From positions 1 to 64,000 of the forward strand of contig NZ_LWEX01000406.1 in the NCBI RefSeq assembly GCF_001634885.1: a DNA stretch of 64,000 nt. The letters are read 5' to 3'. The translations under genes and the position numbers were made by a program. The DNA is from Sulfitobacter sp. HI0040 (GTDB lineage Bacteria; Pseudomonadota; Alphaproteobacteria; Rhodobacterales; Rhodobacteraceae). Of this stretch, positions 42,152 through 56,872 are shown piece by piece. Each line of letters starts with the position of its first letter. The stretch's first letter is position 1. The notes beneath the pieces are model-generated. The model saw only the letters and a program-made list of their open reading frames with translations. It did no database searches and was not told the DNA's origin.

Positions 42152-44425
42152 ATGTCCGACACCCCCAATGCGCGCCAGGCCGCGCTTGATTATCATGAGT
42201 TCCCAAAACCCGGCAAGCTTGAGGTGCGCGCGACAAAACCGCTGGCCAACGGGCGGGATCTGAGCCGGGCCTATTCGCCCGGCGTCGCCGAAGCCTGCAT
42301 CGAAATCGGCAAGGACCCGGCCAATGCCGCCCGCTTCACCGCGCGGGGTAACCTTGTAGCCGTGGTCACGAATGGCACCGCCGTGCTTGGGCTGGGCAAC
42401 ATCGGGGCGCTCGCTTCAAAGCCGGTGATGGAGGGCAAGGCGGTCCTGTTCAAGAAATTCGCCGGCATCGATTGTTTCGATATAGAAGTCGATCAATCCG
42501 ACCCCGAAAAGCTGGCCGATATCGTCTGCGCGCTGGAGCCGTCCTTTGGTGCCGTGAACCTCGAAGACATCAAGGCACCCGATTGTTTTACCGTTGAACG
42601 TATTTGCCGCGAGCGGATGAACATCCCCGTCTTTCACGACGATCAGCATGGCACCGCCATCGTCGTGGGCGCGGCCGCGACCAACGCGCTCCACGTGGCG
42701 GGCAAGAAGTTCGAGGACATCAAGATCGTTTCCACCGGGGGCGGTGCTGCAGGGATCGCCTGTCTCAACATGTTGCTGAAGCTGGGTGTGAAACGCGAAA
42801 ATGTCTGGCTCTGCGATATTCACGGGCTTGTCTACGAAGGCCGGACGGAGGACATGAACCCCATCAAGTCCGAATTCGCCCAGGAAAGCGACCTGCGGAC
42901 TCTCGCGGATGTCATCCCCGGAGCGGACTTGTTCCTGGGCCTTTCGGGCCCGAACGTCCTGACGCCCGAGATGGTCCAGCAGATGGCCGAAAAACCGATC
43001 ATCTTCGCGCTGGCCAACCCGAACCCTGAAATCATGCCGGACCTGGCCCGGGCCGTGTCGCCTGACGCCATTATTGCGACGGGTCGTTCTGATTTTCCCA
43101 ATCAGGTCAACAACGTCCTGTGCTTTCCCTTCATCTTCCGCGGCGCGCTGGATGTTGGTGCCACCATGATCAACGACGAGATGAAGATTGCCTGTATCGA
43201 AGGTATCGCGGCGCTGGCGCGGGCCACAACCTCTGCCGAAGCGGCTGCCGCCTATCAGGGCGAGCAGCTGACATTCGGGCCCGATTACCTCATTCCGAAA
43301 CCATTCGATCCGCGACTGATCGGCATCGTTTCTTCCGCTGTGGCCGAAGCCGCGATGGCAACGGGCGTGGCGACCCGGCCCATTGAGGACATGGAGGCCT
43401 ACCGCGACAGGCTCGAAAGTTCGGTGTTCAAATCGGCTCTGCTGATGCGCCCGGTCTTCCAATCCGCGCGATCCGCCCCCCGCCGCATCGTCTTCGCCGA
43501 AGGTGAGGACGAACGCGTGCTGCGCTGCGCACAGGCCATGCTGGAGGAAACGACGGAGCGCCCGATCGTGATCGGCCGCCCCGAGGTGATCGAGCGGCGG
43601 ATTGAGCGCGCGGGGTTGACGATCCGGCTGGGCATGGATGTCGACCTCGTGAACCCGGAGAATGACCCTCGCTACCGCGACTACTGGGAAACCTACCACG
43701 GTCTCATGTGCCGCCGTGGCGTTTCCCCCGACATCGCCCGCGCGGTGATGCGGACGAATACGACCGCCATCGGCGCGGTGATGGTCCATCGGGAAGAGGC
43801 CGATTGCCTGATCTGCGGCACTTTCGGTGAAACCCGGTGGCATCTCAACTACGTGGAGCAGGTGCTTGGCCGGGACGGGCGGCGTGCCCATGGCGCCCTG
43901 TCGATGATGATCCTCGAAGACGGCCCGCTTTTCATCGCCGACACGCAGGTGCACCTGCATCCCGATCCGCAGCAACTGGCGGAAATCGCCATCGGAGCTG
44001 CGCGACATGTGCGCCGCTTCGGGATCGAGCCAAAGGTCGCCTTCTGCTCGCAAAGCCAGTTCGGAAATCAGGGGGAAGGGTCGGGCAAACGTCTTAGGGC
44101 GGCGATCAGGCTGCTCGACGAAATGTCGCCCGGCTTCTCCTACGAGGGGGAGATGAACATCGATACCGCGCTGGATCCGGATCTGCGCGAGCGACTTCTG
44201 CCGGGTAACCGCATGTCGGGGCCTGCCAACGTGCTGATCTTTGCCCATGCGGATGCGGCGTCGGGCGTCCGGAATATTCTGAAGATGAAGGGCGGCGGGC
44301 TTGAGGTCGGCCCGATTCTCATGGGCATGGGTAACCGCGCCCATATCGTATCCCCCGCCATCACCGCCCGCGGCCTTCTGAACATGAGCGCCATCGCGGG
44401 CACGCCGGTGGCTGAATACGGTTGA
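42152..44425 (+). CDS. maeB: NADP-dependent malic enzyme with phosphotransacetylase-like domain
   Basis: A 757-residue MaeB-type protein that decarboxylates malate to pyruvate with NADP. The malic half (1 to about 425) has [14 protein letters not shown], the catalytic region [14 protein letters not shown] and the nucleotide motif [15 protein letters not shown]. The C-terminal half is a phosphotransacetylase-like domain ([19 protein letters not shown]) that in this family is usually regulatory, sensing acetyl-CoA, rather than catalytic. GCAGGAGCG lies before the ATG. It supplies pyruvate and NADPH during growth on acetyl- or propionyl-CoA-yielding substrates such as those handled elsewhere in the window. 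Confidence 0.95.
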
Positions 44426-44436
44426 ACGCCTGAGGT

Positions 44437-44475
44437 AAAAAAAATCGCGCCGTGCCGGGATGGCAACGGCGCGAT
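44437..44475 (-). terminator. Minus-strand rho-independent terminator downstream of a small gene
   Basis: A nine-base stem (ATCGCGCCG / CGGCGCGAT), extendable with TGCC/GGCA, is preceded on the plus strand by eight As, which makes a T tail for minus-strand RNA. No known minus-strand gene ends here except the small frame at 44616-44687, so it supports a short transcript from the 520-base gap 44426-44945. Confidence 0.8.
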
Positions 44476-44615
44476 CTGATGAAACGGATTGGGGCCTATC
44501 GAAGAGTGATCAAGAAATTCGATCAGGTTCCCGCCAAGTCTCTGGACGTTGATTATGGATACGTCCGGCGCGTCGCCCCAAAGAGGGGCGACGGCATTCC
44601 GATGAGAACAGAACC

Positions 44616-44687
44616 TTACTTCTGCTGCGGCTTGTCGCCGGGCTTGGAGGGGTTCTTCTTGGTCTGGGGTTTTGGCGAAGTTGCCAT
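44616..44687 (-). CDS. Candidate 23-residue Lys/Pro-rich small protein
   Basis: The frame encodes MATSPKPQTKKNPSKPGD and five more residues, rich in lysine, proline and glutamine. Codon choice is GC-rich in third positions like the neighbours, a GAGAG motif sits about eight bases before the ATG, and a strong terminator on the same strand lies 140 bases downstream. Such a short frame could be chance; a small RNA from the same transcript is an alternative. The rest of the 44426-44945 gap holds only two terminators. Confidence 0.4.
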   Translation of the reverse strand: MATSPKPQTKKNPSKPGDKPQQK

Positions 44688-44875
44688 GACGCATACTCTC
44701 GTTTGCAGGTCGAACCGACACCATGCCGGCTCTGATACCATGTTGTCACCGCAGCCGCCCCGACGTCTTCCCCTTTTCGACAGCGATGTCGCAAACGCGG
44801 ATTTTCGGCCAAGCGCCGCGCATTGAGCTCCCGGGGCGGGCAGTTTTTTGCCCCGCTACACGGCCCTTTCCGAAA

Positions 44876-44903
44876 ACGAAAAACGCAGGCGGAACCGCCT
44901 GCG
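44876..44903 (-). terminator. Rho-independent terminator of the MipA/OmpV gene
   Basis: On the minus strand a nine-base stem CGCAGGCGG / CCGCCTGCG with a two-base loop is followed by a T-rich run. It lies 43 bases after the stop of the OmpV-type gene. Confidence 0.85.
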
Positions 44904-44945
44904 CCTCTTGGGTGTTCTGTGGGTCGCGGTCCCGCGGACCCGGGA

Positions 44946-45722
44946 TCAGAAGCGAAGGGTGAATGCCCGGCTCAGACCGATTCGCACCCGCCACTGGTCT
45001 TCCGACCCGACAGCGGTGATCGGGCTGTCCCCGGCGTCCTCCACCAGCTTTTCATAGCTCACTAGACCTTCGGCCGCCCAGTCGTCGCTGATCCGGTAGA
45101 TGGCCTGCACGTCGAAGCCCGCACCCAGAACACCGCCATCAGCATCGAAGGCCGAAAAGCTGGAAGCCGCCGCTTCCGCCGGCGTCACCCCGAAGTAGGT
45201 TGAAGAATATTCGCTGTCGCCCAGATGCAGACGGGGGCCAGCAAAGATCGTCCAGCGGTTATCGGGACGGAAAATCGCGTCGGTTCCGACGGTGCCGGTA
45301 ACGCCGTCATGCCCACCGAAGCCCTTCCGGACGTCGACAAAGGCCTGATAGTTGGTCTGGCGATAGATAAGACCCAGCCCCAGTTCCAATGTCGCATCGA
45401 CATCGTTCAAACCGGACAGCACCGGATAATCCGCATCGTCCCGCTCACCGATGTAGCGAAACGCGCCGCGCACGCCGAAGCCATTGTCAGGAATGACACC
45501 GATGCCGGTCCCGAGGCTCAGCCGGTCGAACCGAAGCGCGCCGAAGGTGAAACCCAGATCGGGGGCGGCTTCGTAGTCGTCCGAACCCGGATATGCCGGC
45601 GCGGCAGCGACCCCGCCGCGAATGGCGAAGTTGAGAGAGCGTTCCTGCGCGGCGGCCGGCAGAGCCGTCAGCGCGGCGATGGCCACGGCACAGGAAGCAG
45701 AAAAAATTGTGGAAAGGCGCAT
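44946..45722 (-). CDS. MipA/OmpV family outer membrane protein
   Basis: A 258-residue beta-barrel protein. A Sec signal peptide (ending ALTALPAAAQ) precedes the family start GGVAAAPAYPGSDDYEAAPD, and the chain ends in Phe (AFTLRF), the usual signal for barrel assembly. MipA/OmpV proteins are porin-like or scaffold proteins linked to murein enzymes; the exact role is unknown. GGAGTC lies before the ATG. Its leader, 45754-45777, contains an eight-base inverted repeat CCGCGTCC / GGACGCGG that may fold in the mRNA. It is divergent from prpE. Confidence 0.9.
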   Translation of the reverse strand: MRLSTIFSASCAVAIAALTALPAAAQERSLNFAIRGGVAAAPAYPGSDDYEAAPDLGFTFGALRFDRLSLGTGIGVIPDNGFGVRGAFRYIGERDDADYPVLSGLNDVDATLELGLGLIYRQTNYQAFVDVRKGFGGHDGVTGTVGTDAIFRPDNRWTIFAGPRLHLGDSEYSSTYFGVTPAEAAASSFSAFDADGGVLGAGFDVQAIYRISDDWAAEGLVSYEKLVEDAGDSPITAVGSEDQWRVRIGLSRAFTLRF

Positions 45723-45979
45723 CGATAACGACTCCTAGCAGGAACAGGCAGCTCCGCGTCCATGGCAGCGGACGCGGTCTTTGTGGCATCTAACCCATCT
45801 TCAGAAGACGGACAGCAAAAACCGCGGATTTGGCCGCTATCCTCTCCGGGGTGACACATGAAGTCCACGGTTTTTCTTGAAAAGACCGCATCTCTTACCC
45901 CTATGCAGGACAGCGCGGACTTGCCCCGCGCCCAAGGCTCGCCTACCCCTTTGTCACCCGAATTGAGGAGGAGGCTGTG

Positions 45980-47881
45980 ATGGGCTATCGCGAAACCTAT
46001 GAACGCTGGCAGGACGACCCGGAAAGCTTCTGGCTGGAACTGGCGGAAGACATCGACTGGGTCGAACCGCCAAAGCAGGCCCTGTTCGATCGCGGCAATG
46101 ATACCTACGAATGGTACGCCGATGCCAAGCTGAACGGCTGTTACAACACGATCGACCGCCATGTGGAAAACGGGCGCGCGGATCAGGTGGCCATCATCCA
46201 CGACAGCCCCATCACCGGAACCAAATCGCACGTCACCTTCCGCGAGATGCGCGACCGTATCGCGGCGCTGGCCGGGGTGCTGAAAGCACAGGGCCTGGCA
46301 AAGGGCGACCGCGTGGTGATCTATATGCCCATGATCCCCGAGGCGATCGAAGCGATGCTGGCCTGCGCCCGCATCGGCGCCGTCCATTCCGTCGTCTTCG
46401 GCGGTTTCGCGGCAAATGAACTGTCGGTGCGTATCAACGACTGCAAGCCCAAGGCGATCCTCGCCGCCTCCTGCGGGTTGGAGCCCGGGCGCGTCGTCGC
46501 CTACAAACCGCTGATCGACGGGGCCATCGAACTGGCCACCCACAAGCCCGACTTCTGCGTCATCCTTCAGCGCGAACAGCAGCCCTGCACCCTGACCGAG
46601 GGCCGGGATCTGGACTGGTACGAAGCGCGCGAAGGCGTGGCCCCGGCGGACTGCGTCCCGGTGGAGGGCAACCACCCCGCCTATATCCTCTACACCTCCG
46701 GCACTACCGGCGCGCCCAAGGGCGTGGTGCGCCATACGGCGGGCCATCTGGTCGCGCTCTACTGGAGCATGAAGAACGTCTATGACGTCGAACCGGGAGA
46801 GGTCTTCTGGGCGGCGTCGGACGTAGGCTGGGTCGTGGGGCATTCCTACATCTGTTATGCGCCGCTGGTACACGGGAACACGACCGTCGTCTTCGAAGGC
46901 AAACCCATCGGCACACCGGATGCCGGCACCTTCTGGCGCATCATCGAAGAACATGACGTGCGCAGCTTCTTCACCGCGCCCACGGCGATCCGGGCCGTGA
47001 AACGGGACGATCCCACGGGCGAGGAACGCAAGAAATACGACCTGTCGCGCCTGCGCGCGCTCTACCTTGCGGGGGAACGGGCCGATCCAGATACGATCCT
47101 CTGGGCGCAGGACGTTCTGGGCGTGCCGGTCTACGATCACTGGTGGCAGACCGAAAGCGGCTGGCCAATGGTGGCCAATCCCGCTGGCCTTGAAAGACTG
47201 CCGGTTAAGATCGGCTCACCCACCGTGGCAATGCCGGGGTACGACATCCGTGTGTTGGACGAGGCGGGCCAGGAAAAGCCCCGGGGACAGCTTGGCGCAA
47301 TCGCGGTGCGCCTGCCGCTTCCCCCGGGCACCCTGCCGACGCTGTGGAACGCGCCGGAACGGTTCCACAAATCCTACCTCGCCACCTTTCCCGGATATTA
47401 CGAGACAGGCGATGCCGGGATGATCGACGAAGACGGCTATATCTACATCATGGCCCGCACCGATGACGTCATCAACGTGGCCGGCCACCGCCTGTCCACA
47501 GGCGCGATGGAAGAGGTGCTGGCGGGCCACCCCGACGTGGCCGAATGTGCCGTTATCGGCGCGTCCGATCCGCTAAAGGGGCAGACGCCGGTCGGTTTTC
47601 TGTGTCTCAGCAAGGGCGTGGACCGCCCCCACGAAGAGATCGTGGCCGAATGCGTCCAGAGGGTCCGGGATCAGATCGGCCCCGTTGCCGCCTTCAAAAA
47701 GGCAGTCGTGGTGGACCGTCTGCCCAAGACCCGCTCGGGCAAGATCCTGCGGGCGACCATGGTAAAGCTCGCCGACGGCGAAGACTTCAAACTGCCCGCC
47801 ACAATCGACGATCCCGCCATTCTGGACGAGATCAGCGTGGCTTTGGGCGAAGTGGGGCTAGGAAAGAAAGCAGCTTCCTGA
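45980..47881 (+). CDS. prpE: Propionyl-CoA synthetase
   Basis: A 633-residue acetyl/propionyl-CoA synthetase that activates propionate (or acetate) to the CoA ester. The ATP loop is YILYTSGTTGAPKGVVRHT near 235-253, followed by WAASDVGWVVGHSYI, DHWWQTESGWPM, and the catalytic lysine in LPKTRSGKILRATM near the C terminus. Its N terminus YRETYERWQDDPESFW and VHSVVFGGFAANEL fit PrpE better than Acs. The ATG at 45980 is placed by AGGAGGAGG upstream; a GTG lies one codon earlier. It is followed by a strong terminator. Confidence 0.9.
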   Translation: MGYRETYERWQDDPESFWLELAEDIDWVEPPKQALFDRGNDTYEWYADAKLNGCYNTIDRHVENGRADQVAIIHDSPITGTKSHVTFREMRDRIAALAGVLKAQGLAKGDRVVIYMPMIPEAIEAMLACARIGAVHSVVFGGFAANELSVRINDCKPKAILAASCGLEPGRVVAYKPLIDGAIELATHKPDFCVILQREQQPCTLTEGRDLDWYEAREGVAPADCVPVEGNHPAYILYTSGTTGAPKGVVRHTAGHLVALYWSMKNVYDVEPGEVFWAASDVGWVVGHSYICYAPLVHGNTTVVFEGKPIGTPDAGTFWRIIEEHDVRSFFTAPTAIRAVKRDDPTGEERKKYDLSRLRALYLAGERADPDTILWAQDVLGVPVYDHWWQTESGWPMVANPAGLERLPVKIGSPTVAMPGYDIRVLDEAGQEKPRGQLGAIAVRLPLPPGTLPTLWNAPERFHKSYLATFPGYYETGDAGMIDEDGYIYIMARTDDVINVAGHRLSTGAMEEVLAGHPDVAECAVIGASDPLKGQTPVGFLCLSKGVDRPHEEIVAECVQRVRDQIGPVAAFKKAVVVDRLPKTRSGKILRATMVKLADGEDFKLPATIDDPAILDEISVALGEVGLGKKAAS

Positions 47882-47923
47882 CACGTGGCGGGAGGCCACC
47901 GCCACCACCCGGCCTTCCTCACG

Positions 47924-47966
47924 AAAAAAGGCGACGAGCGATCTGAAACCGCTCGCCGCCTTTTTC
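47924..47966. terminator. Bidirectional terminator between prpE and a convergent gene
   Basis: A 16-base inverted repeat with one mismatch (AAAAAGGCG...CGAGCG / CGCTCG...CGCCTTTTT) around a nine-base loop. The A run and T run at the ends allow termination in both directions. Confidence 0.9.
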
Positions 47967-47982
47967 AATGATGTGGCCCGGA

Positions 47983-48450
47983 TCAAGCGGCCTTGGTCTC
48001 AGCCTTCGGGCTGACGGCGGCATCCGCGTTTTGGTCGGCCATCAGGGTCGCCTTGTAGGAATTGGCCCCCTGCGACGCCTTGCTCACACCGGAGATCTGA
48101 TCGATCAGCAGTCGAGCCTTCGCCGCCTGCTGCTGCCGCTCCGCGGCAACCCGGGCAAAGGATTCATCTGTGACCGCCTGCTCGGGCTTTACCAGCGTGC
48201 GCTCGACAGATGTACTCGCCTGAGCGGCGCCGGTGGCCTGAACAGCACGCGACTGCGATACCTGCTTGCTTTCCGGAGCGGCACTGGCGGCCGCGGCGCC
48301 TTCGCTGCGGGACGGCTCTGCAGTGTTGGTGCCTGACTTGGTCTCGGCTGATGCTTTGTCCTTGTTCTGACCCTGGGCTTCGGACTTGCCCGGGGGCGGA
48401 GAATACGCCCGGGGGGCGCCTCCTCCAAAGAGTGGAGAAATCGGATTCAT
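47983..48450 (-). CDS. Disordered Ala/Gln/Ser-rich hypothetical protein
   Basis: A 155-residue protein, mostly low complexity (Ala, Gln, Ser, Glu, Lys), with one probable helix near the C terminus (ESFARVAAERQQQAAKARLL, then IDQISGVSKASQG). The N terminus MNPISPLFGGGAPRAYSPPP has no signal peptide. A GGTG-containing ribosome site and the bidirectional terminator at its 3' end support it as a gene. I do not recognise a family. Proteins of this look occur near flagellar or cell-surface genes in roseobacters, but nothing here confirms that. Confidence 0.6.
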   Translation of the reverse strand: MNPISPLFGGGAPRAYSPPPGKSEAQGQNKDKASAETKSGTNTAEPSRSEGAAAASAAPESKQVSQSRAVQATGAAQASTSVERTLVKPEQAVTDESFARVAAERQQQAAKARLLIDQISGVSKASQGANSYKATLMADQNADAAVSPKAETKAA

Positions 48451-48605
48451 TGGTTCACCTATTTCAATTTGGTTACTCGGAATGAACCGTAGAAGAAGCC
48501 TCGAACTAAGGCATCTTCATGTCGCCGCCCGGGCCTTTCGCGTACATATCAGCGCATTGTATTGGGGTGGTAAACAGTTGTGATTTAATGGTTTTATTGT
48601 CCACA

Positions 48606-51164
48606 TTACCCGCATTTGCTGTGGCCGCAACTTCCGCAGGTCATACATCCCTCGACCATGCGCAGATCGAACTGACCGCAAGAGGGGCAGGTCTTTCCAC
48701 GGGGCGCATCCAGACCGACGACCTTGGCTTGCGGGTCGGTCTTGAGCCCCATGCCCTCGCCCGCGATAAAGCCCGTGGCGATCATATGCCGTTCGATCAC
48801 CCCGCCGATGGCCGCGAGGATCGAGGGGATGTATTTGCCCCCCATCCAGGCACCGCCACGCGGGTCGAAGACGGCCTTCAGCTCTTCCACCACGAAGGAC
48901 ACGTCACCGCCACGCCGGAACACGGCGGAGATCATCCGGGTGAGCGCCACGGTCCATGCGAAATGTTCCATGTTTTTCGAGTTGATAAAGACCTCGAAGG
49001 GGCGACGGTGGCCGTTCAGGACAATGTCGTTGATGGTGATATAGAGCGCATGTTCGCTGTCAGGCCATTTGACCTTGTAGGTGTTACCCTCCAACTCGTT
49101 CGGCCGGTCCAGCGGTTCGGACATGTAGATGACATCGCCTGCGTTGGCGTCTTCCACAACCTCTGGCGTGCCACTGCCCAAGGGCTGGCCCTGACTGCGG
49201 GCGGGGTCGAAGGCCCCGCCCATGGGGGCGGTCGGGGCCTGCCCGGCTGCGCCGGGCGTATCGCCGCCAATTAGCTGACCAACTGGAACGCCGAGAGCTC
49301 GCGCGATACTTTGAAGGGTAGAGACTTTCGGTGACCCAATTTTTCCACTCAGAATATCATATACCCCAGTGTAGTTAAGGCCCGCCTTCCCCGCCAAACT
49401 CTTCGCGTTCACCTTTTTTTCTTCCATTAGCACTTTCAAGTTATGACGAAGGTCAAACTTCGGCTTCTCCTCCGCCACGCTCAACACGCTGCCGGTCACG
49501 TCGTTCGGGCGGTAGGTCGTGCAGCCCTTGCAGCCGGAATCCCACGCTTCCATATAGACGTCCTTGAACGCCTCGAAGCTGATATCCTCGGGGCAGTTGA
49601 TCGTCTTTGAAATGCTCGAATCCACCCATTTCTGCGCCGCCGCCTGCATCTTGACGTGATCGAGCGGCGCCAGCGTCTGCGCATTGACGAAGTAATCGGG
49701 CAGGTCCGCATCCCCCTTCAGGTCGCGCCACATCTGCACGGCGTAATCCACCACCTCCTCCTCGGTGCGGCTGCCATCCTTCTGAAGCACCTTGCGGGTG
49801 TAGGCATAGGCAAAGACCGGCTCGATCCCCGAAGAGACATTGCCCGCATAAAGGCTGATCGTCCCCGTGGGCGCGATGGAAGTAAGGAGCGCATTACGAA
49901 TGCCATGGGTCCGCACGGCTTCGCGCACGTCCTCGTCCATCCCCTGCATCGTGCCCGACGCCAGATAGGCCTCGGCATCGAAAAGGGGAAAGGCGCCCTT
50001 TTCCTTCGCAAGTTCCACTGATGCAAGGTAGGCGGCGCGGGCAATGGCGTGCAGCCATTCTTCGGTCTGCGCCGCCGCCTCATCGGACCCATAGCGCAGC
50101 CCCATCATCAAAAGCGCGTCCGCAAGCCCGGTGACCCCAAGCCCGATCCGCCGCTTGGCCTGCGCTTCGCGCGCCTGCGCCTCCAACGGAAACTGGGACA
50201 CGTCCACCACGTTGTCCATCATGCGCACCGCTGTCGCCACCAGCTCGTTCAACGCATCCTGATCGAGCGCCGCGCCTGCGTCGAACGGGTCCGTCACCAA
50301 CCGCGCGAGGTTGATCGACCCGAGAAGGCAGGCCCCGTAGGGCGGCAGCGGCTGTTCGCCGCAGGGGTTCGTCGCGGCAATCGTCTCGCAGTAGGACAGG
50401 TTGTTGGCCGCATTGATCCGGTCGATGAAGATGACACCCGGCTCGGCGAAATCATAGGTCGCCTGCATGATCCGGTTCCACAGGTCGCGCGCCTCCACGG
50501 TGCGATAGACCTTGTCGCCGAAAACAAGGTCCCATGACGCATCGGCTTTCACCGCCTCCATGAAGGCATCGGTGATCAGAACCGACATGTTGAACATGCG
50601 CAGCCGGGCCGGGTCCGACTTGGCAGAAATGAAATCTTCCACATCGGGATGATCGCAGCGCATGGTCGCCATCATCGCACCCCGCCGCGATCCGGCGGAC
50701 ATGATGGTACGGCACATGGCATCCCAGACGTCCATGAAACTGAGCGGCCCCGATGCATCCGCCGAGACACCCAGCACATCCGCCCCCCGGGGCCGGATCG
50801 TCGAGAAATCGTAGCCGATGCCGCCGCCCTGCTGCATGGTCAGGGCCGCCTCCTTCAGCATATCGAAAATGCCCGCCATGCTGTCCGGAACGGTGCCCAT
50901 GACGAAGCAGTTGAACAATGTGACGCGCCGCGCCGTGCCGGCCCCCGCCGTGATGCGGCCCGCAGGCAGGTATTTGAAGTCCTGCAAAGCATCGTAAAAA
51001 CGCTCCGTCCAGAGCGCCTTGTCCTCCTCGACCTGCGCCAGATCGGTGGCGATACGGCGCCATGTATCCTCCACCGTGACATCGCGCGGGGTTCCGTCGG
51101 CGTCCTTGAACCGGTATTTCATGTCCCAGATCTGTTCGGCAATGGGGGTGGAGAAACGGGTCAT
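48606..51164 (-). CDS. nrdJ: Adenosylcobalamin-dependent ribonucleotide reductase (class II) with embedded helix-turn-helix domain
   Basis: An 852-residue reductase that makes deoxyribonucleotides with B12. The barrel has the redox Cys in RRVTLFNCFVMGT, the radical Cys268 and Glu270 in ATNPCGEQPLPPYG, the partner Cys in YGACLLGSINLARL, and ends GCKGCTTYRPNDVTGS near 545. A TSCPD domain follows (YKVKWPDSEHALYITINDI), then a redox tail, CPSCGQ...CMTCGSCGHSKCG. Between barrel and TSCPD, residues 568-633 form a Cro/C1-type HTH, NLKVLMEEKKVNAKSLAGKA to STLQSIARALGVPVGQL, coded by DNA of about 47% GC. The ATG at 51164 follows CAGGAATCGCC. Confidence 0.93.
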   Translation of the reverse strand: MTRFSTPIAEQIWDMKYRFKDADGTPRDVTVEDTWRRIATDLAQVEEDKALWTERFYDALQDFKYLPAGRITAGAGTARRVTLFNCFVMGTVPDSMAGIFDMLKEAALTMQQGGGIGYDFSTIRPRGADVLGVSADASGPLSFMDVWDAMCRTIMSAGSRRGAMMATMRCDHPDVEDFISAKSDPARLRMFNMSVLITDAFMEAVKADASWDLVFGDKVYRTVEARDLWNRIMQATYDFAEPGVIFIDRINAANNLSYCETIAATNPCGEQPLPPYGACLLGSINLARLVTDPFDAGAALDQDALNELVATAVRMMDNVVDVSQFPLEAQAREAQAKRRIGLGVTGLADALLMMGLRYGSDEAAAQTEEWLHAIARAAYLASVELAKEKGAFPLFDAEAYLASGTMQGMDEDVREAVRTHGIRNALLTSIAPTGTISLYAGNVSSGIEPVFAYAYTRKVLQKDGSRTEEEVVDYAVQMWRDLKGDADLPDYFVNAQTLAPLDHVKMQAAAQKWVDSSISKTINCPEDISFEAFKDVYMEAWDSGCKGCTTYRPNDVTGSVLSVAEEKPKFDLRHNLKVLMEEKKVNAKSLAGKAGLNYTGVYDILSGKIGSPKVSTLQSIARALGVPVGQLIGGDTPGAAGQAPTAPMGGAFDPARSQGQPLGSGTPEVVEDANAGDVIYMSEPLDRPNELEGNTYKVKWPDSEHALYITINDIVLNGHRRPFEVFINSKNMEHFAWTVALTRMISAVFRRGGDVSFVVEELKAVFDPRGGAWMGGKYIPSILAAIGGVIERHMIATGFIAGEGMGLKTDPQAKVVGLDAPRGKTCPSCGQFDLRMVEGCMTCGSCGHSKCG
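49268..49462 (-). other. Lower-GC insert coding an XRE/Cro-C1 HTH domain within nrdJ
   Basis: Counting bases 49271-49460 gives 89 G+C of 190 (47%), against roughly 64% on either side. The borders are sharp, at the codons for KFDLRHNL and IGGDTPG, and the reading frame is kept. The encoded helices (LMEEKKVNAKSLAGKAGL, then YTGVYDILSGKI, then STLQSIARALGV) have the spacing of phage-repressor-like HTH_3 domains. Confidence 0.85.
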
Positions 51165-51294
51165 GGCGATTCCTGCAGCTTGGGGAAGGCGACCAAGATA
51201 ACCCAATCCAAGACGCCAGTCCACCACACCTTGATCGAACTCTGCGCCCGGCTACCTTATATCGTAGGTTTCACCCATGCCCCCGGAAGGCCCC

Positions 51295-51726
51295 ATGAAT
51301 CCATATATGAACCTCATCAAGCTCAGCGTTGGCAGTGATAGCGTGGAATCGCTCATCGACTGGCAGACCAACCGCTCCGGCCAGCGATCCGAAGGTAAAT
51401 ATTACCATGTCACCCGGATGTGGCCCAAACGCGAAGCGGAGATCCTCGCCGGCGGTTCGATCTATTGGGTGATAAAGGGCGAGATCCTGTGCCGCCAACG
51501 CATCCTCGGTTTCGACGAGAAAATAGGCAATGACGGGATCCGCCGCTGCGGTATCGTTCTGGATGCCGATATTCGCCGCGTCTCTCCGGTTCTGCGGCGT
51601 CCCTTCCAAGGCTGGCGCTACCTGTCGCCCGTCGATGCGCCCCCCGACCTACGCCACGGGCGGGAGGACGAACCCGCCTTGCCCCGCGATCTCGACCGAG
51701 CCTTGGCGGAAATCGGCGTTCTCTGA
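51295..51726 (+). CDS. DUF1489 family protein
   Basis: A 143-residue protein of the DUF1489 family, recognised from NLIKLSVGSDSVESLIDWQ at the start, TRMWPKREAEILAGGSIYWV and the later RPFQGWRYLSPVDAPPDL. The family is conserved through alphaproteobacteria with no known function. The ATG at 51295 has GGAAGG five bases upstream. It is divergent from nrdJ and is followed by the palindromic repeat that separates it from the acyl-CoA ligase gene. Confidence 0.88.
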   Translation: MNPYMNLIKLSVGSDSVESLIDWQTNRSGQRSEGKYYHVTRMWPKREAEILAGGSIYWVIKGEILCRQRILGFDEKIGNDGIRRCGIVLDADIRRVSPVLRRPFQGWRYLSPVDAPPDLRHGREDEPALPRDLDRALAEIGVL

Positions 51727-51758
51727 TCAGACGGCGGGAAGCGCTGCATCCGGGGTGC

Positions 51759-51822
51759 TTGAGTATTTATGAAAGGGTGAAGGAGGGCAGACCGCTCCCT
51801 TCACCCTTTTCCAAATACTCAA
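51759..51822. repeat. Palindromic intergenic repeat, GAGTATTT / GGGTGAAGG type (second copy)
   Basis: Left arm 51759-51785 (TTGAGTATTTATGAAAGGG then TGAAGGAG) and right arm 51795-51822 are inverted copies with only a few mismatches around a nine-base loop. It is the compact form of the element at 21239-21420. Lying between convergent genes, it should act as a terminator for both. Confidence 0.82.
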
Positions 51823-51849
51823 ATCCACCGTTCCTACCGAAAGCTCCGT

Positions 51850-53667
51850 TCACCGGTAAAGGGCTTCTATTTCCTCGGCATAGATTTCGAATATTTTCGC
51901 GCGCCTGACCTTCATCGTCGCGGTAACTTCGCCGTCATCGTGATCCAGCTCCTTGCGCAGCAGCCAGATTTTCTTGACCTGCTCGACCCGTGCCAGATCG
52001 TCATTGCGCTTTTGCACCTCGCCTTCGATCAATGACTGAACCTGCGGATTCTCCGCCAGCGAACGGAAGGTCGTATAGGCGATACCCTGGCCCTCCGCCC
52101 AGAGGCGCACGTTGTCCATATCGAGCTGTAAAAGTGCCGCGACATAGGGGCGCTTGTCGGCCACGACGATCACCTCTTTGATAAAGGGGCTGGCCTTGAT
52201 GACGTTCTCGATATGCGCGGGCGACAGGTTCTTGCCGGCGGCGTTGATCATGATGTCTTTCTTCCGGTCCACAAGCGACAATGACCCGTCTGGCTCGATC
52301 CGTCCCACGTCCCCGGTGTGCAGCCATCCATCCTGAATAGCTTCGGCGGTCGCCTTCGGGTTCTTGTAGTAACCTTTGAAGATCGTGGGGCCCTTGAACA
52401 GTACCTCGCCATCTTCGGCCAATCTTGTCTCGACGCCTTCCACGGGAAAGCCGATCCGACCGTCGCAGGCTCCCCAGTCCGACTGGATGGTTCCCACCCC
52501 CGATGTCTCGGACATCCCCCAGGCTTCACGGATATTGATCCCGATCCCGCGCAGAAAGCCGAGAAGGTCGGCACTGATCGGAGCGGCCGCCGTAATGGCG
52601 AAACGGGTGCGGCCGAGGCCCAGGTAGCTGCGAATATGACGGTAAATAAGCGCATCCCAGAAGCTGTGCGCCAACCGGTCGCGCAGGGTCCACCGGTCGC
52701 GGCGTATCGCGCCGCGGCGCTGGGCGCCCCTGAGTGCCGCGAGCGTCAGTGGGCGGCGCAAAGGCCCTGCCGTCTGTGCCTGTACCAGCACACCGGCTTG
52801 CATCTTTTCCCAGATGCGGGGTACGCCAAAGAAGATCTGCGGCGCGACTTCGCGAAGGTCCAGTGTAATGGTCCGCAAGCTCTCGCCGAAGTTCATCACG
52901 AACTGCTGGCTGAGCCCGTTGATCACCGTGACCGCCTGTTCCGCGATATGACACAGGGGAAGATAGCTGAGGACGTCTGTACCGGCTGGAAAATGCCCAA
53001 AAGTCGCCCGGGCGATCGCCCCGCCCGCGTGAATATTGCCAAAGGAGATCTCTGCCGCCTTCGGCAGCCCCGTGGAACCGGAGGTAAAGACCATCATCGC
53101 CGTGTCGTCAGATGTGATCCCTGCCTGTCGCGCCGCGAGGTCCCCGGCCAGTTCCGACAGCTGCGCCCGCCCCAGTTCCAGCAGGCGTTCGAAACTGATG
53201 AGGCCAAGCGTTTCATCCCCTAGGCACCCCTTGGGATCGAAAACGATGAGTTGCGTCAGCGCGGGCACCTTCCCGTCGAGATCCTTGATCTTGTCGAGCT
53301 GCTCCTGATCCTCGATGAACAGGATCGTGGTGTCGGAGGCATTGATCAGGTGATCCAGCTCCGCGGCGGGGCTGGTGGGATACATGCCCACCACCACGCC
53401 CGCGGCGGCGTTGATCCCGAACTGCGCCTGCACCCATTCGCTGCGGTTTTCTGACAGGATGCCAACGTGGCCACCGGGCGCCAGGCCCAGCGCCATCAGG
53501 CCCGCGCCCACCGCTTCCATGATGTCGCGCAGATCGGCCCAGTTGATCTCATGCCAGATGCCGAATTCCTTCTGGCGCATTGCCACCGCCGCGCCATGTT
53601 CGGCAGCGTGATCGTGGACCATTTGCACGAGGGGCCGAAATCCACCGGGCCTTTCGTCGAATGCCAT
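51850..53667 (-). CDS. Long-chain-type acyl-CoA synthetase (AMP-forming)
   Basis: A 605-residue adenylate-forming ligase of the long-chain branch (FadD15/ACSL-like). The ATP loop is MMVFTSGSTGLPKAAEISFG near 190-209, the A5 motif EAWGMSETSGVG, the hinge aspartate in LHTGDVGRIEPDGSLSLVDR and KKDIMINAAGKNLSPAHIEN. The C terminus is longer than in short-chain enzymes, as expected. It is the last gene of the livGHMKF operon, nine bases after livF, which suggests that the acid imported by the ABC system is activated here. In other alphaproteobacteria such pairs serve fatty or aromatic acids. Confidence 0.9.
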   Translation of the reverse strand: MAFDERPGGFRPLVQMVHDHAAEHGAAVAMRQKEFGIWHEINWADLRDIMEAVGAGLMALGLAPGGHVGILSENRSEWVQAQFGINAAAGVVVGMYPTSPAAELDHLINASDTTILFIEDQEQLDKIKDLDGKVPALTQLIVFDPKGCLGDETLGLISFERLLELGRAQLSELAGDLAARQAGITSDDTAMMVFTSGSTGLPKAAEISFGNIHAGGAIARATFGHFPAGTDVLSYLPLCHIAEQAVTVINGLSQQFVMNFGESLRTITLDLREVAPQIFFGVPRIWEKMQAGVLVQAQTAGPLRRPLTLAALRGAQRRGAIRRDRWTLRDRLAHSFWDALIYRHIRSYLGLGRTRFAITAAAPISADLLGFLRGIGINIREAWGMSETSGVGTIQSDWGACDGRIGFPVEGVETRLAEDGEVLFKGPTIFKGYYKNPKATAEAIQDGWLHTGDVGRIEPDGSLSLVDRKKDIMINAAGKNLSPAHIENVIKASPFIKEVIVVADKRPYVAALLQLDMDNVRLWAEGQGIAYTTFRSLAENPQVQSLIEGEVQKRNDDLARVEQVKKIWLLRKELDHDDGEVTATMKVRRAKIFEIYAEEIEALYR

Positions 53668-53676
53668 GTGCTTTTC

Positions 53677-54474
53677 CTAGCTCAGCCAGCGCTTGCGGCG
53701 CTTGTAGTGTTTCACGTCGCGGAAGGATTGCCGCGCTTCACTGCCATCGTCGGAAACCCCAAGGTAGAACGACTGGATGTCCTTGTCGTTGCGCAGGGTC
53801 GAAACGTCACCCTCCAGCACGATCTGGCCGCTTTCCATGATGTAACCGTAATCGGCCACCGAAAAGGCGACGCCCGCGTTCTGTTCGACCAACAATATGC
53901 TCGTTCCGTCCTCTTCGTTCAGGCGGCGGATCGTATCGAAGATCTCCTCGACGATCTTGGGGGCGAGCCCCAGCGATGGTTCGTCCATCAGGATCAGTTC
54001 GGGCCGTGCGATCATTGCCCGCCCGAAGGCCAGCATCTGCTGTTCCCCGCCCGAAAGGTAGCCCGCGATCTGGCGGCGGCGTTCCTGCAGGCGCGGGAAG
54101 AAAGCATAGACCTTGTCGTAATCGGGCTTCGCCTTGCGTTGGTCCAGCGCATAGGAAGCGGCGATCAGGTTGTCTTCCACCGTCATCTCCGAAAAGATAC
54201 GTCGCCCCTCGCGGACATGAAAAAGCCCCTGCTGCACGAGCCGGTCCGGCTGGATCGACAGGATGGATTTGCCCTTGAACGAGATGCGCCCCTCGCCCAC
54301 TTCGCCGTTTTCCAGCGCCAGCAGGTTGCTCGCGGCTTTCAGCGTCGTCGTCTTGCCCGCGCCGTTCGTGCCCAACAGGGTCACGATCTTGCCGTCCGGC
54401 ACCTCCAGCGACAGGCCGCGCAGGGCCTGTACCGTATGGTGATAGGTGACTTCGATGTTCTCGATGGTCAGCAC
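53677..54474 (-). CDS. livF: Branched-chain-type ABC transporter ATP-binding protein
   Basis: A 265-residue ATPase of the LivF type. Walker A is LLGTNGAGKTTTL near 34-46, the signature YLSGGEQQMLAFGRAM near 139, Walker B LILMDEPSLGLAPK, and the switch His equivalent is Gln in LLVEQNAG, as usual for LivF. A basic C-terminal tail (FRDVKHYKRRKRWLS) extends beyond most family members. It pairs with LivG on the LivHM channel. A hairpin separates it from the binding-protein gene upstream. Confidence 0.92.
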   Translation of the reverse strand: MLTIENIEVTYHHTVQALRGLSLEVPDGKIVTLLGTNGAGKTTTLKAASNLLALENGEVGEGRISFKGKSILSIQPDRLVQQGLFHVREGRRIFSEMTVEDNLIAASYALDQRKAKPDYDKVYAFFPRLQERRRQIAGYLSGGEQQMLAFGRAMIARPELILMDEPSLGLAPKIVEEIFDTIRRLNEEDGTSILLVEQNAGVAFSVADYGYIMESGQIVLEGDVSTLRNDKDIQSFYLGVSDDGSEARQSFRDVKHYKRRKRWLS

Positions 54475-54514
54475 GCGGGCGATCCTCGTTTCGGCAAGGC
54501 ATGGGAATGGTCGA

Positions 54515-54539
54515 CGGGCCGGAGGTACCCCCCGGCCCG
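54515..54539 (-). promoter_or_regulatory. Hairpin between the binding protein and livF genes
   Basis: An eight-base GC stem (CGGGCCGG / CCGGCCCG) with a nine-base loop lies seven bases past the binding-protein stop codon. It has no T tract. Like the hairpin at 2486-2503, it follows the substrate-binding gene of an ABC operon and probably stabilises that part of the message. Confidence 0.5.
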
Positions 54540-54546
54540 CTTCGTG

Positions 54547-55755
54547 TCACTCGACGGTGAACCAGTCCGACGTGGGCTGGAACAGGCCGCTCGCCGCTTC
54601 GTAGGTATAGACCCGCCCGGTGCCGATCTTGTTGTTCTTCATGCTTACAGGTCCGCCGAAGAAGCCGCCGGTATCGTAGTCGGTGATGCCAGCCAGTTCC
54701 TCTGCCGCCCGCTCCGCGGTCAGTTCCTCGCCCTTCCCGGCCACCCGGCGCAGCGCCTCGACCCCGAGGTTCATCGAAATCAGCGATTGCAGACCCCAGG
54801 TCGGCATGTAGTTTTCCAACGGCGTGCCCGCGAAAGCGGACTTCTGGAAAGCCGCATAGCGCTGATAGATCGGCGCCTCTTCGGCATCGTAGGAATAGCG
54901 GTAGGGCATCACCCCGGAATAGCCGTCGAGGAAGGGGCCCGCCTCTGCCGTTACCCGATCCGCTATCAGTTTCTCCATGCCCCAGAACGTGCCGTAGAAC
55001 TGCGTGGGCAGACCGAACTGGCGCGCGCCGCCGATAAGCTGCGGCCAGACCCCGGTGACATAGCCCTGCAGGATGCAATGTTCCGCACCCGACTGGGCGA
55101 GCTTGGTCACATGGGTCGGGATATCCGCCCCCTGCGCCTTGGTCGTCTCTTCCAGCACGACTTCGAGGCCAAGCTTCTCTGCTTTCTTGCGACCGTGTTC
55201 GATAGGGTCGCGCCCAAACTCGGTGTTGGAGAAGATGAAGGCGACGTTGGTGCCACCCGCGTTCTTGATGTTTTGCAGCAGGATGTCGACCTGATCCTCA
55301 TAAGAGGGGCCCGGCAGATACTGGTACGGGTTCTCCGCCGGGTTCGCGAGGTCGGAGGCGAATGAGGTGGAGCCCATCAACGTCGCATTCTTGCCCTTCA
55401 GTTCGGGCGCCACCAGTTTCATGAAGCCGGTGCTGTCACCGTAATAGAGCACCATGTTCGGCTCCGTCGCCAAGGCGCGCTGGTAATTCGCAAGCGCCGT
55501 CGCGGGCACATAGCCTGAATCCTCGATCACTGTACGGATGGGCACGCCGCCGATGCCGCCGTCCTCATTCACCAGCGCCTCGAACATCTTCATGGCCGGT
55601 GAAACGAGCTGACCTGCCGTGGCGAAGGGGCCGGTAAGCGGCAGCGAAGAAGCCACGACATATTCCTTGGGCTGGGCGCGCAGGATCATGGGCGTTCCCA
55701 TAACGGCGGTCGCCGCGGCGGATGTGGCTAGAAACGAACGTCTGCTGAGTGTCAT
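54547..55755 (-). CDS. livK: Branched-chain-type ABC transporter substrate-binding protein
   Basis: A 402-residue periplasmic protein of the Peripla_BP_6 (LIV-binding-like) family. Its N terminus, LSRRSFLATSAAATAVMG, is a twin-arginine signal, so it is probably exported folded. The mature start YVVASSLPLTGPFATAGQ and the region NEDGGIGGVPIRTVIEDSGY are typical of this family. Although named after branched-chain amino acids, members bind many acids and amides; the acyl-CoA ligase in the operon suggests a carboxylic acid. It is encoded after livM, an order seen in such catabolic clusters. Confidence 0.88.
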   Translation of the reverse strand: MTLSRRSFLATSAAATAVMGTPMILRAQPKEYVVASSLPLTGPFATAGQLVSPAMKMFEALVNEDGGIGGVPIRTVIEDSGYVPATALANYQRALATEPNMVLYYGDSTGFMKLVAPELKGKNATLMGSTSFASDLANPAENPYQYLPGPSYEDQVDILLQNIKNAGGTNVAFIFSNTEFGRDPIEHGRKKAEKLGLEVVLEETTKAQGADIPTHVTKLAQSGAEHCILQGYVTGVWPQLIGGARQFGLPTQFYGTFWGMEKLIADRVTAEAGPFLDGYSGVMPYRYSYDAEEAPIYQRYAAFQKSAFAGTPLENYMPTWGLQSLISMNLGVEALRRVAGKGEELTAERAAEELAGITDYDTGGFFGGPVSMKNNKIGTGRVYTYEAASGLFQPTSDWFTVE

Positions 55756-55801
55756 GTTGGTCTCCCTGTCTGGTTTGGTCGTTTATCTTGGTATTCCGGT
55801 A

Positions 55802-56872
55802 TCACCCGCGCGCGAAGGGCCAGCGGTTCGCCGCGCGCAGGATGCGATCCACGATCTGATTGATGCCCAGCGGCTCCTTCAGCAGAAACAGAACGAGCAA
55901 TGCGCCGAAAGCGATTTCCTGCAAGGGCGCGCGCAGTTGCGCCATTCCGGCGGCATCGCCGGTGACGGCCCCGAAGGTGATCTTGATCAACTCGGGCACC
56001 AGCACGATCACGATAACACCGAAAACCGGGCCCATGGTGCGCCCCAACCCCCCGACGATCAGCGCCGCGACGAGTTGAAGCGACAGCGCGAGTTCAAATT
56101 GTTCGGGCAGGATGCGCGCGTAGAAATATGCAAACAACGCCCCGGCAAGGCCGCAATAGGCAGCGGAGATCGCGAAGCTCGTCAGTTTGTAGCGCAAAAG
56201 CGAGATACCGAGGATCTCGGCGGAATAATCACGGTCGCGGATCGCGATGAAGGCGCGGCCCACGCGCGTCCGCATGAGGTTTTGTGCCGCCAGAAGCGCC
56301 AGCACCCCAAGCACCGCGATCAGGCCGAACATCTCGCGTTTGGTGTCCAGCACCCATCCGAAGAAGTTGGGCGCATTGGTGGTAAGCCCCACCATCCCGC
56401 CCGTCCAGGGTGCGAACAATTCCTCCTCGATCAGGAAGATGACGATGAAGTTCGCCGCCAGCGTCGCCACGGCAAGGTAAAGCCCCTTCACCCGCAGTGA
56501 AGGCAGCCCCACCAGCACGCCGACCGCGGCGGCAAGAAAGACGGCAAAAGGCAGCGACAGGAACGGCATGATCCCTGCCGGGATAATCCCCGTGGCGACA
56601 TTGTTGAAGATCGTCACCGCATAGGCACCGATCGCCACGAAGGCCCCGTGCCCCAGCGACACCAGCCCGGTATAGCCTGTCAGTACGTTGATCCCCACCA
56701 CCGCGATGAGCAGGATGCCCATCTGGCTGCCGATCAGAATGGCATAGTCGCTCCCGAAAAGCGTAAAGAGCGCAAGCAGCAGGATCGATCCGTAGACGAA
56801 GCCCTGCTTGTAGCGGTTGTCCAGCACGCGTTCGTCGGCGGCATAGGACGACTTGAGGTTGGCGTTGATCAT
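55802..56872 (-). CDS. livM: Branched-chain-type ABC transporter permease
   Basis: A 356-residue membrane protein of the LivM type with about nine spans. Family marks are GYTGLVSLGHGAFVAIGAYA in the first half and the coupling loop IAIRDRDYSAEILGISLLRY, followed by FAISAAYCGLAGALFAY. It forms the channel with LivH, whose stop overlaps its start by four bases. Confidence 0.93.
   Translation of the reverse strand: MINANLKSSYAADERVLDNRYKQGFVYGSILLLALFTLFGSDYAILIGSQMGILLIAVVGINVLTGYTGLVSLGHGAFVAIGAYAVTIFNNVATGIIPAGIMPFLSLPFAVFLAAAVGVLVGLPSLRVKGLYLAVATLAANFIVIFLIEEELFAPWTGGMVGLTTNAPNFFGWVLDTKREMFGLIAVLGVLALLAAQNLMRTRVGRAFIAIRDRDYSAEILGISLLRYKLTSFAISAAYCGLAGALFAYFYARILPEQFELALSLQLVAALIVGGLGRTMGPVFGVIVIVLVPELIKITFGAVTGDAAGMAQLRAPLQEIAFGALLVLFLLKEPLGINQIVDRILRAANRWPFARG

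Follow-up and report, generated by a model that had tools for sequence, protein, structure and literature searches.

The window analysed here is a 64,000-nucleotide stretch of Sulfitobacter sp. HI0040 (contig NZ_LWEX01000406.1, positions 1 to 64,000), and the gene in question is nrdJ, which encodes a predicted class II ribonucleotide reductase (RNR) carrying a helix-turn-helix (HTH) domain in the linker between its catalytic barrel and its TSCPD domain. An initial annotation made from the sequence alone had pointed to this domain. In what follows, nrdJ genes with an HTH at this site are called filled and those with a short linker empty. The features of the locus are:

48606..51164, minus strand: nrdJ, predicted adenosylcobalamin-dependent (class II) ribonucleotide reductase with a linker HTH, from TIGR02504, the Pfam barrel and TSCPD domains, and T. 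maritima NrdJ as best fold matches
49512..50912, minus strand: RNR catalytic barrel (PF02867), from Pfam (numbers shifted by one) and the invariance of NPCGE
49452..49511, minus strand: 5' flank of the insert, ending in ...GSVLSVAEEKP, a partly disordered tether whose codon use differs between filled and empty genes
49263..49457, minus strand: Cro/C1-type HTH of five helices and low GC, from Pfam, AlphaFold, Foldseek and composition
49131..49262, minus strand: Pro/Gly-rich disordered tether 3' of the HTH, very GC-rich and partly common to genome G010, from composition, alignment and AlphaFold
48783..49079, minus strand: TSCPD domain, then a Cys-rich tail, from Pfam
51277..51726, plus strand: DUF1489 protein, the divergent neighbor of nrdJ, kept in filled and empty relatives, from locus comparison

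The protein is 852 amino acids (aa) long, counted from the ATG at 51164; Pfam numbering runs one too high because of an extra first residue. It matched the class II model TIGR02504 with an E value of 1.9e-179 and 598 bits, against a curated cut-off of 400, and its Pfam domains were, in order, the RNR barrel (86-552, PF02867, E 5e-131), HTH_26, HTH_3 and TSCPD (697-795). NPCGE, the active-site motif, and the C-terminal cysteines were invariant in the 25 aligned homologs, both HTH-bearing and empty, and therefore the enzyme looks intact despite the HTH. One study describes class II NrdJ proteins with a long C-terminus that holds an IscU-like domain and a zinc finger (PMC9669993); the TSCPD domain of the window NrdJ is probably that IscU-like domain.

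The initial annotation described a complete repressor-like HTH between the barrel and the TSCPD domain, and both the domain and its coordinates were confirmed. HTH_26 matched residues 576-633 (E 4.1e-9, 37.0 bits against a gathering score of 22) and HTH_3 residues 577-630 (E 8.8e-6, 26.1 bits against 23). An AlphaFold2 model of the entire protein from the 25 aligned sequences had a mean predicted local distance difference test score (pLDDT) of 69 and placed five helices at residues 572-632 with pLDDT 82-90, while the linkers on either side fell below 50. Modelled alone, the domain had a mean pLDDT of 74.5. Foldseek matched the isolated domain with probability 1.00 to DdrO, restriction-modification controllers, CapH, SinR and 434 Cro, with query TM-scores (TMq) of 0.58-0.64 to 434 Cro, SinR, CapH and DdrO; no match had an E value under 0.001, a limit set by the shortness of the domain. 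These models predict a lambda-repressor-like five-helix fold, so that structure prediction and profile search agree with the annotation. Its figure of 47% GC for the HTH was also borne out (47-48%), but the gene as a whole is 62% GC rather than about 64%. GC at third codon positions (GC3) was 0.48 in the HTH against 0.80 in the gene, every other 186-base window of nrdJ being higher, and 3' of the low-GC patch a very GC-rich stretch (0.71-0.84) forms its border.

No S24 peptidase followed the HTH in the Pfam matches; the tether and the TSCPD domain follow instead, and the domain is thus not part of an S24/CI repressor. The Pfam matches of the window NrdJ included no intein model. Among the PADLOC defence models only HTH_VI matched (E 0.0044), which is nothing beyond a generic HTH. 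No RNA family reached its gathering score within positions 44000-56000. Inside the tether, beside the HTH, lies a short GC-rich palindromic sequence (49198..49252, minus strand) that is similar to three further places in this genome (80-89% identity across some 38-55 bases) and had weak protein-level matches in short open frames from other members of the genus. It is probably a dispersed repeat of the repetitive extragenic palindromic (REP) kind, here read in frame.

The annotation had also called this NrdJ essential, and that claim found no support, as contig C141 of the same genome carries another class II RNR gene of a different type (best piece 34% identity, open frame of 1084 aa). Matches of this second kind were found in most other listed genus members as well, so that both kinds are present.

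Sixty of the 62 genus genomes contained nrdJ, and the HTH columns were spanned only by the window gene and by that of G010. The insert in G010 is also an HTH (HTH_3, E 1.2e-12) and lies between the same outer flanks, but it is of a different type, while the linkers of the other measured genus members are 37-44 aa long. The empty genes of G031 and G011 grouped with the window gene, and G010 fell outside (support 95/87). Presence and absence, which the annotation had proposed mapping in related Rhodobacterales, differ between close homologs: many are empty and others hold a different HTH. One further genus member (G064, locus L389) has an nrdJ spread over several reading frames, which is a pseudogene or an assembly error.

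A scan with the window protein took in 84,980 species, one genome apiece, and the best 80 of 588 loci were analysed, the closest named relatives among them being Sulfitobacter and Roseobacter. Eighteen of the 80 had linkers of 107-129 aa, all of which read as HTHs, and 62 had linkers of 34-52 aa; one of the six search patterns lay within the window HTH and the ranking may favor filled genes, and 18 of 80 should therefore not be read as a frequency. The filled loci included Tateyamaria, Sedimentitalea, Pelagimonas, Pseudooceanicola, Antarcticimicrobium, Puniceibacterium, Roseovarius, Rhodosalinus, Aliishimia, Psychromarinibacter, Defluviimonas and Rhodovulum. DUF1489 stood divergently beside nrdJ in 16 of the 18 filled and 61 of the 62 empty loci.

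A profile built from 20 filled linkers was compared with 394 Rhodobacteraceae genomes, about one per genus, and 350 gave a match. An HTH was present at the linker site in 46 of the 350: 45 matches spanned the insert columns (one of them reaching only 175 of 197), none with an internal stop, and the gene of G202, matched from column 44, was then found to be filled. The linker of G202 (locus L202) is 206 aa long and holds two HTHs of different types in tandem. The remaining 304 genomes (about 87%) lacked an HTH as judged mostly by not spanning the insert; in 60 of them the linker was measured by script at 34-48 aa. In a class-wide sample of 289 genomes with 106 matches, none of the 102 matches outside the family spanned the insert columns. 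In the genus of G116, one of five was above the limit of 1e-60. Assembly error is unlikely, because HTHs were found in genomes of 1-2 contigs (G225, G185 and G359).

A viral origin of the whole HTH-bearing NrdJ was considered and rejected. The phage NrdJ proteins among the matches listed were 56-67% identical, and three of them, with linkers not read, are 756-776 aa long by their annotated coding sequences and therefore have no room for the insert. Of the best 80 of 232 NrdJ loci on viral contigs, 56 had their linker length measured and 26 their linker sequence read; by eye none of these 26 linkers held an HTH, with three unread linkers of 60-79 aa remaining. One viral linker (L317) is 157 aa long and by eye is not an HTH.

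To compare HTH type with NrdJ ancestry, 224 rows were reduced to 206 by removing duplicates, giving 57 HTH-bearing genes (linkers of 102-206 aa) and 148 empty ones (32-52 aa). L190 and L201 had been dropped as too short, L045 (62 aa) fell in neither group, and loci lacking the downstream motif were skipped and not counted. Median pairwise identity among the 57 HTHs was 27.5%, and they formed 11 clusters at the chosen cut and 7-17 at others; 49 matched HTH_3 and 50 matched phrog_8, a phage regulator family. On a FastTree phylogeny of 151 NrdJ proteins with the linker left out (94 of them empty), presence and absence required at least 33 changes, 10 of them forced by well-supported branches. A more careful tree of 31 rows (18 with HTH), chosen after the first, gave 9 changes with 7 forced. 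A single clade for its 18 HTH-bearing rows was rejected by the approximately unbiased (AU) test (p 1.07e-51), as was a single clade for the six rows of cluster 1 (p 2.31e-61).

The type of HTH had no detectable relation to nrdJ ancestry. Types changed 38 times among the 57 genes; shuffling gave a mean of 39.2, with 164 of 500 shuffles as low, and a Mantel test of NrdJ distance against HTH score gave r -0.036 (p 0.23). The nearest neighbor of an HTH-bearing gene was also HTH-bearing in 39 of 57 cases, but only six of these 39 pairs shared a cluster, with 4.7 expected. Fully supported sisters carried unlike HTHs, such as L084 (cluster 1) with L158 (cluster 4) and L078 (cluster 8) with L090 (cluster 1).

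L169, with an HTH, and L123 of R. pomeroyi, with a short linker, were 95% identical over 1,440 bases of barrel DNA; L077/L121 and L085/L205 likewise pair a filled with an empty gene at 85-87% identity. No target-site duplication was seen in these alignments. The HTH was poorer in GC than the remainder of its gene in 49 of the 57 cases and had a lower GC3 in 53, and 38 HTHs fell within the lowest 5% of windows of their own gene. Codons just 5' of the insert differed between 57 filled and 110 empty genes (GGG 0.63/0.29, TTG 0.53/0.25, AGT 0.46/0.12, filled/empty), which suggests that inserts travel together with some flank. Empty linkers, in L204-L263 and other empty genes, were of two kinds, those with a PEVV...PHGDV flank common to filled genes (31 of the 94 tree rows) and those without it (63 of 94); the former may be remains of filled genes.

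These results describe a domain that sits at one site with a predicted fold and usually a foreign composition, that is present, absent or different in close relatives, and that keeps its HTH signature. The linker between barrel and TSCPD in chromosomal Rhodobacteraceae NrdJ is almost certainly a recurrent insertion and swap site for Cro/C1-type repressor HTHs. The in-frame gain of a repressor-type HTH proposed in the initial annotation is consistent with the Pfam matches, GC3, the empty close relatives and the kinship to repressors described below; its picture of a single capture gives way to recurrent, swapping insertion across the family.

Such a pattern could arise if mobile DNA repeatedly left functionless HTH fragments in a flexible linker, where they are tolerated as passengers. 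The disordered linkers on either side of the domain in the model, the frequency of empty genes and the dispersed GC-rich repeat that adjoins the window HTH would all fit. However, the long host linkers that were read held HTHs and no other domain, the inserts match the extent of an HTH domain by eye, and 49 of 57 match HTH_3. HTH pairs of at least 50% identity had ratios of nonsynonymous to synonymous polymorphism (pN/pS) of 0.19-0.56, below 1, though part of this history may predate the fusion, and the 45 spanning family matches are free of internal stops. A functionless passenger is accordingly a rather improbable account. As for other inserts at the linker site, seven loci with odd frames all had linkers of 39-51 aa. 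Four of these (L383, L384, L387 and L388) have a long intein-like insert directly after NPC, as judged by sequence rather than by a domain search, and L045 has a long insert near NPC too.

The relatives of these HTHs outside nrdJ indicate where they may come from. Seven relatives of clusters 8 and 1 on viral contigs were read and four tested by Pfam; three of the four were HTH-S24 repressors at the Pfam cut-off, the fourth fell below it, and the others were open reading frames of 109-202 aa. In family genomes the standalone relatives were mostly open frames of 111-378 aa, with one of 616. A search of a phage collection with the window HTH gave nine records, among them the CI-like repressor of Rhodobacter phage RcapNL (40%), and a cluster-3 HTH matched S24 repressors of Rhizobium phages (36.5%). 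From eight regions surrounding standalone HTHs, two were taken for a scan of ten proteins; one of the two contained an integrase about 3 kb from the standalone relative, and the other a helicase and FtsK-like genes.

As the most likely mechanism we propose that NrdJ remains an enzyme and in addition displays an HTH that would bind operators belonging to temperate phages or other mobile elements, and so hold those elements silent. NrdJ proteins of this kind are dimeric according to PMC9669993, and a dimeric NrdJ would probably bring the HTHs together in pairs, a task that in phage repressors normally falls to the C-terminal domain. The NrdJ-borne HTH would then act as a repressor that cannot be removed by SOS cleavage, and the turnover of phage immunity types could account for frequent HTH replacement and for the many empty genes. 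We put the probability of this whole explanation, the swap site together with operator binding by an NrdJ-displayed HTH, at roughly 0.37. The earlier figure was 0.40 and was lowered because the genome-encoded relatives of the window type are not S24 repressors by Pfam. More tentative again is its fullest form, in which a core enzyme would serve as the fixed scaffold for an exchangeable library of repressor HTHs, a chromosomal immunity repressor that cannot be cleaved and that renews its specificity through swaps among nrdJ alleles and mobile elements.

Several observations weigh against this explanation. Four genome-encoded relatives of the window type (213-254 aa) carry HTH_26 and no S24 domain at the cut-off, one of them having it weakly. 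The cluster-1 HTH had no phage match, and its two plasmid matches are annotated as HigA antitoxin (41.5%). A near-identical phage HTH was not found, the best viral relative being 62% identical over 42 residues and most under 50%, and matches to phage families are expected for any XRE domain. HTH presence is clustered on the tree, with the 33 changes comparing with a shuffled mean of 45.7 (0 of 500 shuffles as low), and it is therefore partly inherited. In clusters 8 and 1, 15 of 17 NrdJ HTHs had a closer relative among the other NrdJ HTHs than among the 8 or 9 standalone domains compared. This weakens fresh capture in every case and makes exchange among nrdJ genes likely besides capture; judged from these sequence comparisons, such exchange probably matters. 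Finally, the HTHs of cluster 2, whose net charge averages -2.7, are mostly rich in GC, as would fit a domain that has long been resident and may not bind DNA.

Cluster 2, being on average acidic, also speaks for the possibility that the HTH does not bind DNA here at all, and is instead a structural or protein-interaction domain that tunes the assembly or the partners of NrdJ, a role that HTHs seem to have in certain metabolic enzymes. Sequence and fold searches find HTH domains in the enzymes HppE, HEPD/PhpD and methylphosphonate synthase (MPnS), and the NrdJ HTH is predicted to fold and looks constrained. A structural role, however, would lead one to expect one conserved domain, yet there are many unlike types distributed at random on the tree, and by the span count about 87% of family genomes with NrdJ (304 of 350) manage without any. 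In cluster 1 the NrdJ HTHs carry nearly the same net charge as their standalone relatives (0.33 against 0.44), and in cluster 8 a somewhat lower one (3.1 against 4.9). We regard a purely structural role as unlikely.

If the HTH does bind DNA, its targets could also be host genes. NrdJ would then be a trigger enzyme, sensing nucleotides or B12 and acting through the HTH to control nrdJ or further host genes, in the manner of PutA and BirA, enzymes with a fused HTH that regulate their own pathways. The initial annotation had suggested binding to the nrdJ promoter itself, but palindromes were not in excess in the 130 bp that precede nrdJ when 31 HTH-bearing genes were compared with 144 others, a weak test in which starts were guessed by motif. 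Each of the frequent changes of type would moreover require new operators, and host regulation is quite improbable. The annotation's other suggestion, that the HTH tethers the reductase to DNA at replication forks (or, as considered here, on a phage genome) for local delivery of deoxynucleotides, is something an HTH would permit. Diverse sequence-specific HTHs fit poorly with general recruitment to forks, no precedent was seen in the literature searched (mainly abstracts, with most subscription papers outside it), and such tethering is highly improbable.

A housekeeping enzyme would be expected to retain its domain plan, yet most genera have an empty linker in NrdJ and about one in eight (46 of 350) a filled one. 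If the HTHs bind operators of phages or mobile elements, they would constitute a new kind of immunity, and host genomes would be a readable catalog of immunity specificities; the literature searched held no sign of such a form of anti-phage immunity or of such a hypervariable recognition locus. If they do not, it is still unusual that one fold has been gained again and again at one site, and this offers a clean system for studying domain insertion and exchange.

No report of an HTH in NrdJ was found in that literature. The term helix-turn-helix is absent from PMC5704485, and neither it nor HTH occurs in the main text of PMC9669993 by term search or in its section 2.4 on C-termini. In the passages covered, PMC10684548 describes other phage proteins with helix-turn-helix domains and a phage RNR that has exchanged domains, and does not mention an HTH in an RNR. 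Like the long-C-terminus NrdJ proteins of PMC9669993 and the T. maritima fold, the window protein has the barrel, NPCGE, TSCPD and Cys-rich tail, in a locus arranged as in empty relatives; unlike them, it carries a Cro/C1 HTH in its linker.

With phage CI/S24-type and short prophage-type repressors the window NrdJ shares the HTH domain itself (HTH_3/HTH_26, PHROG repressors, five-helix fold), but here the HTH lacks the S24 peptidase and lies inside a housekeeping enzyme. HppE, HEPD and MPnS are metabolic enzymes that likewise have an HTH fused to a catalytic domain. In these, as in PutA and BirA, the HTH is a fixed part of the enzyme, whereas in NrdJ it is optional and unlike between neighbors. 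Inteins in RNR genes resemble these inserts in being patchy and in frame, but the intein-like inserts sit at the NPC motif, while the NrdJ insert is an HTH in the C-terminal linker. The arrangement is also like that of the target-recognition domains of restriction systems, in which a constant scaffold carries an exchangeable recognition module; the difference is that the scaffold here is a housekeeping reductase and that recognition by its HTH is putative.

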